From the NCBI GenBank assembly GCA_030147845.1, contig JASBUN010000064.1, positions 38,501 to 102,500 of the forward strand: a stretch of 64,000 bases of DNA, read 5' to 3'. The position numbers and the translations under genes were made by a program. Positions 20,527-26,146 of the stretch are shown here, in pieces. The DNA is from Gammaproteobacteria bacterium. GTDB taxonomy: Bacteria; Pseudomonadota; Gammaproteobacteria; JASBUN01. The notes beneath the pieces are model-generated. The model made no database searches and was not told where the DNA came from. It saw nothing but the letters and a program-made list of their open reading frames with translations. Numbering within the stretch: position 1 is the stretch's first letter; every line of letters starts with the position of its first letter.

Positions 20527-21720
20527 TCAGTGGCGACGACAGAAGTGATCGATGAGGCGTCGTAATAACGCAATCGTTGGTCGTATACGATCCAAGGACA
20601 AATATTCGTCCGGTTGGTGGGCTTGATCGATGTCGCCTGGTCCCATGACGATGGTCTGCATGTGCATGCGTTGTAGGTACGGAGCCTCGGTACCGAACGC
20701 AACGGTGCCGGATTGCTGGCCGCTGAGTCGCTCGGCGACACGGACAATTTCGGCGCTGGCGTCGGTTTCGAAGGCTGGAATGCCCTCGAACAGGGGTTCG
20801 ATTTCCAGGCGCAGATCCTGGTCGTGTAAGCGCCGCTCGAGTCGTTGGCGCAGTTGCTGGCGCAACTCCGGCAAATCCATGCCCGGCAATGGGCGCAAAT
20901 CGATGTGCAGTTCGCAGTCGGCACAGATGCGGTTGGGGTTATCGCCGCCATGTATATGGCCAAGGTTTAGCGTCGGTACCGGAACCTTGAATAGTGGTTG
21001 CCGATTCTGCTGTTGCATCTCGCGGCGCCAGTCGAGTAATTCCTGAATGACGTCGTGCATGCCTTCCAGGGCGTTGACGCCGAGCGCCGGGTCACTGGAG
21101 TGTCCGGAGCGCCCGTACAGACGAATCGCCTCCATTAATATACCTTTGTGCATGCGGATGGGTCGTAGCCCGGTAGGCTCGCCGATGACCGCGTAGCGTG
21201 CTTTCGGCCGGCCCATTTTGACCAACTCCTTGGCGCCGTCCATCGAGCTTTCCTCGTCGGCGGTGGCCAGGATGGTCAGCGGCGCGTGCAGGTCGGCGGC
21301 GTGCAGATCCCGCACCGCTTCGATGGCGAGCGCCAGAAACGCTTTCATGTCGCAGACGCCCAGGCCGTAGAGACGCTGGTTGGCTTCGGTGATCCGGAAC
21401 GGGTCGTAACTCCAACGACCTTCGTCGTAGGGCACCGTATCGGTGTGCCCGGCGAGCACCAGACCACCGTCACCCTCGCCAAGTGTGGCGATGAGGTTGG
21501 CTTTGTCGGGCCAGGCGGGCAGGTCCATGACTTCGACGGCGAAGCCGAGCGTGCTAAGCCAGTCGGCGAGCAGCTCGATGACGGCACGGTTGCCGGTATC
21601 GAAATCGGCGCTAACGCTGCTCATAGACGGCGCCGCCACGAGGCGGCGGATCATTTCCATCAGCGGAGGTGGTGTGTTTGGCATGCCCTGATTGTGGTGC
21701 CAGCGGTGGGTGCGGCGCAA
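20527..21720 (-). CDS. argE: Acetylornithine deacetylase
   Basis: VLAGHTDTVPYDEGRWSYDPF, GLGVCDMKAFLAL, ATADEESSMDGAKEL, VIGEPTGLRPIRMHKG and MGPGDIDQAHQPDEYL. Confidence 0.95.
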   Translation of the reverse strand: MRRTHRWHHNQGMPNTPPPLMEMIRRLVAAPSMSSVSADFDTGNRAVIELLADWLSTLGFAVEVMDLPAWPDKANLIATLGEGDGGLVLAGHTDTVPYDEGRWSYDPFRITEANQRLYGLGVCDMKAFLALAIEAVRDLHAADLHAPLTILATADEESSMDGAKELVKMGRPKARYAVIGEPTGLRPIRMHKGILMEAIRLYGRSGHSSDPALGVNALEGMHDVIQELLDWRREMQQQNRQPLFKVPVPTLNLGHIHGGDNPNRICADCELHIDLRPLPGMDLPELRQQLRQRLERRLHDQDLRLEIEPLFEGIPAFETDASAEIVRVAERLSGQQSGTVAFGTEAPYLQRMHMQTIVMGPGDIDQAHQPDEYLSLDRIRPTIALLRRLIDHFCRRH

Positions 21721-21762: not shown

Positions 21763-22230
21763 ATGTCGGCGGTTCGGAGCCTGGATATGCATACTCATAG
21801 TGAGCGAGCTTCGTCCACCCTATGGCGGGCTGATCAAAGTGGTTTCCAGGCGGCCAAAGTCCGGCTGCGGCAGGCCGATGAGCGCAATGATGACGCTGCA
21901 TCAGATGCCAATGGCGTACTCTATTGCGCACAATGCCGCGCGCCCATCAGCCATGACTCGGAGCGGGTGTCCCGCCGCGGTTCGCACCAGCACCGCTGCC
22001 GCAATCCCAACGACTTGGTGTTCGACATCGGCTGTTTCGCGGATGCCCGCGGTTGTGTGTATGGCGGCCCGTCGGCCGACGCTTGGACTTGGTTTCCGGG
22101 TTATTATTGGCAAGTGAGCTGGTGTAGAGCCTGCGGCGCCCATCTCGGCTGGCGCTACCGTGGCGCCGGTGACGTATTCTATGGTTTGATTCTCGATCGC
22201 CTGGTGAGCGGCCGCGGCGGCGCCGATTAG
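21763..22230 (+). CDS. Stand-alone CULT (cereblon thalidomide-binding fold) domain protein
   Basis: YCAQCRAPISHDSERV...HQHRCRNPNDLVFDIGCF...GGPSADAWTWFPGYYWQVSWCRACGAHLGWRYRG...FYGLILDRL. Two CxxC zinc pairs, and W-x5-W-x13-W at codons 22090, 22108 and 22150. Alternative start at 21787. Confidence 0.88.
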   Translation: MSAVRSLDMHTHSERASSTLWRADQSGFQAAKVRLRQADERNDDAASDANGVLYCAQCRAPISHDSERVSRRGSHQHRCRNPNDLVFDIGCFADARGCVYGGPSADAWTWFPGYYWQVSWCRACGAHLGWRYRGAGDVFYGLILDRLVSGRGGAD

Positions 22231-22338
22231 CCCGTCGCGTTATCGAAGAGTAGTGTGTAGTCCCGGCGCGTGCTAAATTTGCCGCGCCGTGGACGGTGCC
22301 TTCCCGTTTTGCTGTGCACCCTGGAGAGGCAGGGTCGT

Positions 22339-23469
22339 ATGATTCGTTCCGCCAATCTTCGCGATCTCGAAGCGCTCGTCGCTACCGAGAACCGGTGCTT
22401 TGAAACCGACCGCTTGTCGCGCCGAAGTTTCCGTTACATGTTGACCAAGGCCAATGCTGTCACGCTCGTCGATGACGCCGACGGTGTGCTGCGCGGTTAT
22501 GTTCTGGTGCTCTATCACGCCGGCACGTCGCTGGCGCGACTATATTCGATTGCAGTGGATCGCGGTCACCGTGGCTGCGGCGTTGGTGAGCAACTCGTGG
22601 GTGCTGCCGAACAGGCGGCGCTGGACGCTGACTGCGTCAACATGCGATTGGAAATACGTCGAGACAACCGGGCGTCGCTGCACCTGTTCGAAAAACTGGG
22701 TTACCGCAAATTCGGTATGTATCCGGATTACTATGAGGATCATATGGAAGCGGTGCGCCTGGAGAAGGAGCTTGCGCCGCACTTGCGACCGGAACTCGTC
22801 AGCGTCCCCTATTATGAGCAGACACTTGATTTTACCTGCGGTCCGGCGGTGCTGATGATGGCCATGCATAGCTTGGATGATGCGCTGGCGTTAGACCGCC
22901 GGTTGGAAATCCGCATTTGGCGGGAATCCACTACAGTATTCATGACGGCCGGGCACGGAGGTTGCGGTCCCTATGGTTTGGCGCTGTCGGCATATCGTCG
23001 CGGGTTTGACGTCAGTGTCTATGTCAATGATGAAGCGGCGCTGTTTGTCGATTCCGTACGTAGCGCCGAGAAAAAGGAAGTCATCCGCTTGGTGCAGGAA
23101 GATTTCCTCGAGGAAATTGCCCAGCTGCCGATCCCGGTGCATTACCGCAGTTTGAGCCTCGCTGAGATGCGCACCGAATTTGATCGTGGCGGTATTCCCG
23201 TCGTATTGATCAGTTCTTACCGAATTTATAAGGAAAAATTTCCGCACTGGGTGGTGATAACCGGTTTCGACCATCGGTTCATTTACGCCCATGATCCATA
23301 CGTCGATCATGAAAAAGGCAAGAGCGTGACCGACGTACTTAATATGCCTATTTTGCAGAAAGATTTTGAACGCATGGCGCGCTATGGAAAATCCGGGCAA
23401 CGTGCGGTTCTTATAATTAGTAAATCGAAGGTGACTCGCCGACGACGGCCGGCAGCCCGAAAAACCTGA
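22339..23469 (+). CDS. GNAT acetyltransferase fused to C39-like (papain-fold) peptidase
   Basis: N-terminal RimI-like GNAT (LARLYSIAVDRGHRGCGVGEQLV) and a C-terminal C39-like region with candidate catalytic Cys (LDFTCGPAVLMMAM), His (PHWVVITGFD) and Asp (YAHDPYVD). Confidence 0.87.
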   Translation: MIRSANLRDLEALVATENRCFETDRLSRRSFRYMLTKANAVTLVDDADGVLRGYVLVLYHAGTSLARLYSIAVDRGHRGCGVGEQLVGAAEQAALDADCVNMRLEIRRDNRASLHLFEKLGYRKFGMYPDYYEDHMEAVRLEKELAPHLRPELVSVPYYEQTLDFTCGPAVLMMAMHSLDDALALDRRLEIRIWRESTTVFMTAGHGGCGPYGLALSAYRRGFDVSVYVNDEAALFVDSVRSAEKKEVIRLVQEDFLEEIAQLPIPVHYRSLSLAEMRTEFDRGGIPVVLISSYRIYKEKFPHWVVITGFDHRFIYAHDPYVDHEKGKSVTDVLNMPILQKDFERMARYGKSGQRAVLIISKSKVTRRRRPAARKT

Positions 23470-23478
23470 GAGGAAAAC

Positions 23479-24957
23479 ATGGCGACACAGCTGATTGTCG
23501 TTGAAGACATCGACGACTGGACGTATGAGGGTATCGACTGCCCCGTGGTGCATGCCGATGACTATCTTACCGGACAAGAGTATTTCAAGTTGCGTGACGT
23601 GCAAGTCATCAACTTGTGTCGGAGCTATAAATATCTGAGTGTGGCCTATTACGTTTCGCTGTTGGCCGAGGCGCGTCGCCACAAGGTGATTCCATCGGTC
23701 AAAACCATGCTCGACCTGAGCAGTAAGGCGATGTACAGCCTCGATGCGGTCAATCTCGATGATTTGGTGCAGAAGAAGCTGAAAAAGCAGAATAGCGATC
23801 CGTTTCAAAATGTATTCGAGATGGATGTGTATTTTGGTAATTGCCCGTACGGCGTGTTGGCGGATCTGGCCCGGCAGTTGTTCGAGCATTTCCCGTTTCC
23901 GTTGTTGCGGGTAGGGTTCCGGCGACAAGGAAGTTGGCATATTTCCTCGATCAAGGCGTTGCCGATAACCAAAATCGAAGCGTCTGGTCGAGAGCTGTTT
24001 GCAACGTCTTTTAGCGGTTACCTGAAGCGCCGCTGGCGTTTGCCTAAGACGAAGACGCCGGCGCGCTACGACCTTGCGATTCTTTATAATTCCGCCGATC
24101 CATTGCCGCCGTCGGATAAGCGCGCGCTGCAAAATTTCATCAAGGCCGGCGCCGCCCAAGGTGTCGCTGTCGAGATTGTTGGGCGTAAAGATTACGCGCG
24201 CTTGGCGGAATACGATGCGTTGTTTATCCGCGACACGACGCGCATTAATCATTACACCTATCGTTTTGCCAAAAAAGCGGAAAGTGAAGGTATGGTCGTA
24301 ATCGATGACCCACAGTCGATCCTACGTTGCACCAATAAAGTTTATTTGGCCGAGTTATTGCGCGCCAATCGCGTGCCAACTCCTAAGACGGTGATCGCGG
24401 GGAAGGGTGATCTGAGCGCGGCGGAGAAGGCCATTGGTTTCCCGATGGTGGTGAAGGTGCCGGATGGCTCGTTTTCACAAGGTGTGTACAAAGCCGAAAA
24501 TCCACAGCAGATGCAGGAATACGCTGCACGTTTGTTCAAAAATTCGGAACTCATTTTGGCGCAGGAGTTTCTATATACCGCGTTCGATTGGCGCATCGGC
24601 ATTCTTAATCGCAAACCGGTATTTTCCAGCCAATATTTCATGTCCAAGCAAGATTGGAAGATCGTGAATTATGACGCGTCAGGCAAGGCGATCGAAGGCG
24701 GTTTTAAGACGTGGCCGATAGAACAGGCCCCACAACAAGTCGTCGACGTGGCGCTGCGAGCGGCAAATTTGATCGGCGATGGATTGTACGGTGTCGACGT
24801 GAAACAAAATGACGACGGCATTTACGTTATCGAAGTGAACGATAACCCGAATCTGGACGCGGGTGTGGAGGATGCGGTGCTCAAGGATGAGTTGTATCGA
24901 ATTATCATTGCGGAATTTGTGCGCCGTATCGAATTACGTAAAAGCGCAGAGCGCTAA
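23479..24957 (+). CDS. RimK-like ATP-grasp ligase with RLAN-type N-terminal domain
   Basis: N-terminal VVHADDYLTGQEYFKLRDVQVINLCRSYKYLSVAYYVSLLAEARRHKVIPSV (RLAN-like), then ATP-grasp motifs MVVKVPDGSFSQGVYK and YGVDVKQNDDGIYVIEVNDNPNLD. Ten-bp gap to the preceding gene. Confidence 0.88.
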   Translation: MATQLIVVEDIDDWTYEGIDCPVVHADDYLTGQEYFKLRDVQVINLCRSYKYLSVAYYVSLLAEARRHKVIPSVKTMLDLSSKAMYSLDAVNLDDLVQKKLKKQNSDPFQNVFEMDVYFGNCPYGVLADLARQLFEHFPFPLLRVGFRRQGSWHISSIKALPITKIEASGRELFATSFSGYLKRRWRLPKTKTPARYDLAILYNSADPLPPSDKRALQNFIKAGAAQGVAVEIVGRKDYARLAEYDALFIRDTTRINHYTYRFAKKAESEGMVVIDDPQSILRCTNKVYLAELLRANRVPTPKTVIAGKGDLSAAEKAIGFPMVVKVPDGSFSQGVYKAENPQQMQEYAARLFKNSELILAQEFLYTAFDWRIGILNRKPVFSSQYFMSKQDWKIVNYDASGKAIEGGFKTWPIEQAPQQVVDVALRAANLIGDGLYGVDVKQNDDGIYVIEVNDNPNLDAGVEDAVLKDELYRIIIAEFVRRIELRKSAER

Positions 24958-25195
24958 GTACGTTGCGTCGCTTTGGAAGTGTAACAATGCCTGCTTGATG
25001 CTTTGCTGACAACGCCCGCGTTTGAAAGTTCCCGGCGTTATGTTGCGATACGGTCATGTCAGCGATGTGCATGTTTTTACGGCCAGGAGGGAACCTTCGT
25101 ATCTTATTCATGGTCTCTAAGCAGTAACGGAATTGAAATATCCGAAGATCCGTTTTATATTTCCCAGCAAGTTAAACAACCGAGGAGAACAGACC

Positions 25196-25561
25196 ATGAA
25201 TAAACTCGCCATCGTAATCGTCAGTGTTGCCGCGTTGGGCGCCAGTGTTGCCTCTGCCGCGCAGTGGACTCAAGCCGATACCAATCAACTGGCGTTTCCT
25301 GACGAGTACATCGGTTCGCCTGAGTTAACGGTCAACTCGTCGACGCCTAATGCGGAGTTCGCGAAATTCGATACAGTGCCGACGACGAAATTTGAGCAGC
25401 AGCTCATGTATCCGGACGAGTATGAAGGTTCCCCCGTGCTGCAGCGCAGTCACGCGGAAAAGACTGCTGAGTTCGCTCCATTTTCGGTGACACCGACAAC
25501 CGAGTTCGAGCAGCAGCTCGCGCACCCGGACGAGACGCCATACAAGCCTAATCAGTATTGA
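25196..25561 (+). CDS. Small exported protein with three degenerate PDEY-containing repeats
   Basis: Signal peptide MNKLAIVIVSVAALGASVASAA, RBS aggaga, and repeats NQLAFPDEYIGSPEL / EQQLMYPDEYEGSPVL / EQQLAHPDETPYKP separated by EFAxFxxxPTT linkers. Confidence 0.75.
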   Translation: MNKLAIVIVSVAALGASVASAAQWTQADTNQLAFPDEYIGSPELTVNSSTPNAEFAKFDTVPTTKFEQQLMYPDEYEGSPVLQRSHAEKTAEFAPFSVTPTTEFEQQLAHPDETPYKPNQY

Positions 25562-25618: not shown

Positions 25619-26146
25619 TCAGCGCGTTGCCGCTGCTGTGGCTCGGGCCGCGTCCCCGGGTTGGACGCTACGCGCGATCGGTGTGTTGCAGTTGCTGAGC
25701 TTGAGAGTAGGCGGGTCGACTGAAAAGATAAACGGCGAAGTTTTGCGTAACGCGCTCAGTCCCAGGATGCAACGACCATTGCCGGGCAGCACCGCCACTT
25801 GTACGTTGGGGATGCTACAACGCTCACCGACGATGACTTCCTCGATTTCATATACCGGTACCTCGATGGTGCTGCCATCGGCCATGGCGCCGGTTACGTA
25901 TTTGAGAAAATGCGCTCGTTTGGCGCGCTTGAGCGCGGCCAGTATGGTTTCATTGATGAGTGTATAGCTGGCGCCCGTATCGACCATGAATTGCATATTG
26001 TGGCTGCCGGGGATGTGCACCTGCACGTAGTATGTTTCCAATCCTTGGTTGCGCATGTGAACCGTTTCGTCGGCCGCGATCGCGACCCCGGATGACAATA
26101 TAATTACTATCATAATCAATCGGCTAGAATATCTGCGTAGGTCCAT
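25619..26146 (-). CDS. Exported retropepsin-like (clan AA) aspartic protease
   Basis: Signal peptide, then MQFMVDTGASYTLINETI (DTGAS active site) and CILGLSALRK (second retropepsin motif). Confidence 0.83.
   Translation of the reverse strand: MDLRRYSSRLIMIVIILSSGVAIAADETVHMRNQGLETYYVQVHIPGSHNMQFMVDTGASYTLINETILAALKRAKRAHFLKYVTGAMADGSTIEVPVYEIEEVIVGERCSIPNVQVAVLPGNGRCILGLSALRKTSPFIFSVDPPTLKLSNCNTPIARSVQPGDAARATAAATR

Follow-up and report, generated by a model that had tools for sequence, protein, structure and literature searches.

The window, that is, the whole stretch of 64,000 nucleotides that was analyzed, harbors four consecutive plus-strand genes encoding a CULT protein, a GNAT-DUF3335 peptidase fusion, an RLAN-ATP-grasp protein and an exported repeat protein. 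A previous sequence-only reading had described this arrangement with gaps of 108, 9 and 238 bp, and the coordinates confirmed the order, the strand and all three distances (CULT to GNAT-DUF3335, GNAT-DUF3335 to RLAN and RLAN to the repeat gene, respectively). Absent from that reading were the neighboring genes: argE and argA upstream, both on the minus strand, and downstream a clan-AA aspartyl protease gene (minus strand) and ilvD (plus strand). The features are as follows.

20527..21684, minus strand: argE, divergent from the GNAT gene (NF003474, 1.2e-173)
21763..22230, plus strand: gene for a CULT single-domain protein (phmmer against the PDB)
22339..23469, plus strand: gene for a fusion of GNAT and a DUF3335 papain-like (C39-type) peptidase (Pfam)
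23479..24957, plus strand: gene for an RLAN plus RimK-like ATP-grasp amidoligase (Pfam)
25133..25161, plus strand: sigma-70-like promoter TTGAAA-17-TATATT (consensus match only)
25196..25561, plus strand: gene for an exported PDEY-repeat protein (signal peptide by inspection, repeat test)
25619..26146, minus strand: gene for an exported clan-AA (retropepsin-like) aspartyl protease (PF13975, 3.4e-12)

The G+C content was 62% for the CULT gene, 61% for argE, 55% for the GNAT gene and 51% for the ATP-grasp gene.

Both central genes gave clear domain assignments in Pfam. The first product matched PF11814 (DUF3335; 5.5e-88) and PF00583 (GNAT; 1.2e-14), and an alternative GTG start for its gene was found at position 22270. 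The second carries the RLAN domain (PF14401; 9.7e-48) N-terminal to the RimK-like ATP-grasp domain (PF08443; 4.9e-12) in one polypeptide. Residues Q161, C167, H303 and D319 of the DUF3335 peptidase domain were invariant in 61 aligned homologues, and the fusion adjoining the RLAN gene has an intact Cys-His-Asp set (C167, H303 and D319). Similarly, K287, K326, D440, E452 and N454 of the ATP-grasp domain were invariant in 68 aligned homologues. Judging from their families, these invariant residues are the predicted catalytic residues of the two enzymes, and the pair would possess ligase, acetyltransferase and peptidase activities. AlphaFold models were obtained with a mean pLDDT of 93.8 for GNAT-DUF3335 and 87.0 for the RLAN ATP-grasp protein. 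The closest solved structures of the former were RimI/Ard1 N-terminal acetyltransferases, although the matches listed were all GNAT proteins and the result thus speaks for the GNAT domain, not for the peptidase fold. Those of the latter were ArgX/LysX and RimK.

To follow the pair across genomes, we assembled 96 RLAN loci, 80 from GTDB genomes and 16 from genomes of the same class, in which genes were called by homology. The 80 GTDB loci are the best-scoring relatives of the ATP-grasp protein of the window and hence a nonrandom sample. With the reservation that choosing loci by similarity to this protein favors the paired form, GNAT-DUF3335 was found within 6 kb of the RLAN gene at 84 of the 96 loci. 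At 70 loci it was directly upstream and co-directional, with overlap in two cases and a median gap of 24.5 bp at the 68 cleanly placed loci. It was upstream on the opposite strand at 12 loci (Pseudomonas and the DUF2817 group), and the remaining placements were one convergent and one downstream of RLAN. The two genes were adjacent in Alpha-, Beta- and Gammaproteobacteria. The functional unit is therefore a strongly conserved two-gene pair of GNAT-DUF3335 and RLAN-ATP-grasp. With its active-site residues intact, this unit is consistent with peptide or amide modification, as had been proposed for the pair from the sequence. At one close relative (L035:1889-4840), argE lies directly beside the RLAN-ATP-grasp gene, without the GNAT-DUF3335 gene in between.

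The CULT protein matched the bacterial cereblon homologue 4v2y/7ps9 over residues 51 to 150 (E 8e-21). Its zinc CxxC pairs and ligand-cage tryptophan residues aligned with this homologue and are thus shared with MGR_0879 of Magnetospirillum (4v2y); unlike MGR_0879, it has a 50-residue N-terminal extension, the start codon being uncertain. No curated CULT family was matched in Pfam or NCBIfam, where only a sub-threshold match to Yippee-Mis18 was obtained. The product of 21763-22230 is thus a true cereblon-type CULT domain.

The sequence-only reading had put forward the CULT gene and the pair as a new association, to be checked by a survey of the neighborhoods of RLAN-ATP-grasp homologs. In this survey, the co-occurrence was not conserved, one of the two outcomes that the reading itself had named as speaking against it. 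No CULT match at E 1e-3 was found in the neighborhoods of the 96 RLAN loci, the best match at a loose cutoff (E 0.02, L077) falling on a TrpB-like reading frame. In 368 other gammaproteobacterial genomes, CULT was present in 27 and RLAN in 79, and both were present in 6, compared to 5.8 expected (Fisher P = 1.0). A phylum sample of 398 genomes, which partly overlaps the class sample, gave 20, 71 and 2, compared to 3.6 expected (P = 0.55). In all eight genomes carrying both, the two genes lay on separate contigs or at distances of about 115, 266 and 405 kb. Absence of adjacency together with chance-level co-occurrence led us to reject CULT as a partner of the pair. Moreover, the nearest tree relatives (L087, L034 and L035) had no CULT gene in the sequence examined, and the closest two, L087 and L034, lacked the repeat protein as well. 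The distance from argE to the GNAT gene is 655 bp here, with CULT inside the gap, but only 81 to 411 bp in 17 of 20 argE-bearing relatives. Given this short gap and the absence of CULT from the nearest relatives, CULT looks like a lineage-specific insertion between argE and the GNAT gene, and it is probably a bystander outside the system of the pair. Since it is co-directional, lies 108 bp upstream and is separated from the pair by no terminator-like site that we could find, it might nevertheless be cotranscribed with it. A very local association is also possible because the genomes reached by the kinship search were from the same class only. Elsewhere, a gene for a TauE/SafE-like membrane protein (named by eye) was found 49 to 154 bp from CULT in 6 of 25 neighborhoods (L145 to L169), for example on the strand of CULT at L156:9710-10660.

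On inspection, the repeat protein carries a Sec-type signal peptide, and its sequence contains an acidic 38-residue PDEY repeat in 2.4 copies (28 of 61 residues identical at a shift of 38, a value reached in 0 of 5,000 shuffles). Homologues were absent from the rest of its genome, from the 368 other genomes and from the surroundings of the other pairs at the 96 RLAN loci. A promoter-like TTGAAA-17-TATATT ends about 35 bp before the gene, in a region holding five such sites compared to 3.2 by chance, and the gene is likely transcribed separately from this putative promoter. As an orphan whose gene is preceded by a promoter-like sequence, the repeat protein thus does not hold as a member of a modification locus, is rejected as a conserved substrate and is probably a bystander.

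The aspartyl protease gene (25619-26146) had no significant match in the 96 RLAN loci and is thus not conserved with the pair. We also considered its product as a RimB/RloA-like partner and rejected it on this ground and because it matched PF13975 and PF13650, whereas PF05618, which we take to be the RimB/RloA family, was not among the matches. A crude signal-peptide scan of the 96 loci revealed neither a convincing recurrent exported small open reading frame beside the pair nor a substrate gene consistently adjoining it. The largest cluster of small frames consisted of minus-strand frames that overlapped or adjoined the GNAT gene; we took these frames as antisense. The scan covered precursors with signal peptides and, within that range, gave no convincing candidate for a recurrent precursor-peptide gene of a RiPP/graspetide cluster.

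More information on the chemistry came from the relatives of the ligase. In an RLAN tree from a quick search, a clade of six rows (SH-aLRT 100) was sister to that of the window, a relationship that depends on the midpoint root. Its members (L023, L024, L026, L027, L028 and L031) have an operon with a stand-alone C39-type peptidase, RLAN-ATP-grasp, GCS2 and FGase, joined in L028 by an amidase and a GNAT-nitrilase fusion; elsewhere, DUF2817 lies beside RLAN at seven loci. Pfam was run on the single representatives L023, L028 and L019, and tblastn served to assign the remaining members. Where characterized, these families act on small glutamyl or amide compounds. By analogy, the sister operon suggests a role in the metabolism of glutamyl-type peptides or amides, and we therefore favor a small capped peptide or conjugate over a dedicated protein substrate. 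Neither GCS2 nor FGase was detected in the genome of the window, so the chemistry of the sister operon may not carry over to the pair found here.

Taken together, we consider it somewhat probable that the two enzymes synthesize and turn over a short, capped peptide or amino-acid conjugate, probably of glutamate type, and that three lineage-specific neighbors, namely CULT, the PDEY-repeat protein and the aspartyl protease, stand outside this system. The ATP-grasp enzyme would convert a carboxylate into an acyl phosphate and ligate an amino acid to it, following the chemistry of RimK, LysX and ArgX. The RimI-like GNAT domain may acetylate the substrate or product at a free alpha-amine. Finally, the papain-like domain may cleave or transfer the amide bond. 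The net outcome would be the synthesis and turnover of the conjugate.

The genes upstream suggest another role. At about 20 of the 96 loci, argE lies upstream of the pair on the opposite strand, a frequency that is understated since many contigs are short. This head-to-head arrangement occurs in several related clades, and argA and ilvD are found at some loci. Because of this divergent linkage to argE and argA, the pair could serve arginine metabolism, with acetylated derivatives of glutamate or ornithine as its substrates, and ArgX is the nearest fold of the ATP-grasp enzyme. However, argE is missing from the vicinity of most loci, those of Pseudomonas and Azospirillum among them, divergent neighbors may have only a promoter region in common, and the window carries argA and argE, which belong to the standard acetyl route. 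We thus regard this role as rather doubtful.

Alternatively, the pair could modify a specific protein, with the GNAT domain acetylating its N terminus, the ATP-grasp enzyme extending its C terminus and the papain-like domain removing the addition. RimI and RimK perform N-terminal acetylation and C-terminal amino-acid addition on ribosomal proteins, and the nearest folds of the pair are protein N-terminal acetyltransferases and enzymes acting on protein C termini (RimK or ArgX/LysX). A precedent for removal is provided by RimB, which reverses the action of RimK (PMC12239564). As the likeness of GNAT to RimI and of the ATP-grasp enzyme to RimK/LysX also fits a protein, we keep this substrate in consideration. 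Nevertheless, likeness at the level of a superfamily fold does not settle the substrate, the sister clade is linked to enzyme families of small molecules (GCS2 and FGase), the pair is linked to argE and the crude scan of the 96 loci gave no conserved candidate substrate gene. A dedicated protein target is therefore conceivable, though on the unlikely side. Far less probable is that all four genes form a modification locus, with the exported PDEY-repeat protein as the substrate of the enzymes and CULT as the reader of an imide-bearing product. Such a locus would account for the co-directional order, the short gaps, the intact cage residues of CULT and the real, acidic repeats, and eukaryotic cereblon binds C-terminal cyclic imides (review, PMC13001092). 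Yet CULT is adjacent at 0 of 96 loci and co-occurs with RLAN at chance level, the two being apart or on different contigs wherever a genome has both, and the orphan repeat protein has a promoter-like site of its own. For the same proposal confined to this lineage, which alone would have recruited a cereblon-type reader to the pair, the substrate being the acidic exported repeat protein and the ligand an imide-bearing product, we see hardly any chance.

In the literature searched, we found no characterized product of the pair. Proteobacteria commonly carry the pair, and its chemistry can be tested in culturable strains. Our survey takes CULT and the repeat protein out of the hypothesis, and the sister operon directs assays to glutamyl-peptide or amide chemistry.

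Systems of RLAN-ATP-grasp and GNAT-papain-like proteins were reportedly predicted by Iyer and colleagues in 2009. Their domain families are the same as those of the pair in the window. PMC10318531 (citing Iyer et al. 2009, Mol Biosyst 5:1636) describes DUF3335 as often fused to GNAT domains in possible peptide ligases or acetylases. Compared to these predicted systems, the window adds the CULT and repeat genes, which are missing from the relatives. RimK/RimB and RloABC of Pseudomonas also associate a RimK-like ATP-grasp fold with a peptidase partner, and the exported clan-AA protease gene near the pair adds to the likeness. Unlike the pair, these systems as described in PMC12239564 have neither RLAN nor GNAT-DUF3335, and RimB/RloA is placed there in the "zinc protease" Pfam class. 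The LysX/ArgX amino-group-carrier ligases were the top structural match of the ATP-grasp domain, at about 18% identity, but no gene for a LysW-type carrier came to notice in the surroundings of the pair; against the NCBIfam LysX model, the protein scored 75.8 bits compared to a cutoff of 275.6, which places it outside LysX. The best reading of the locus is thus a previously predicted amidoligase/acetyltransferase/peptidase pair accompanied by lineage-specific neighbors.
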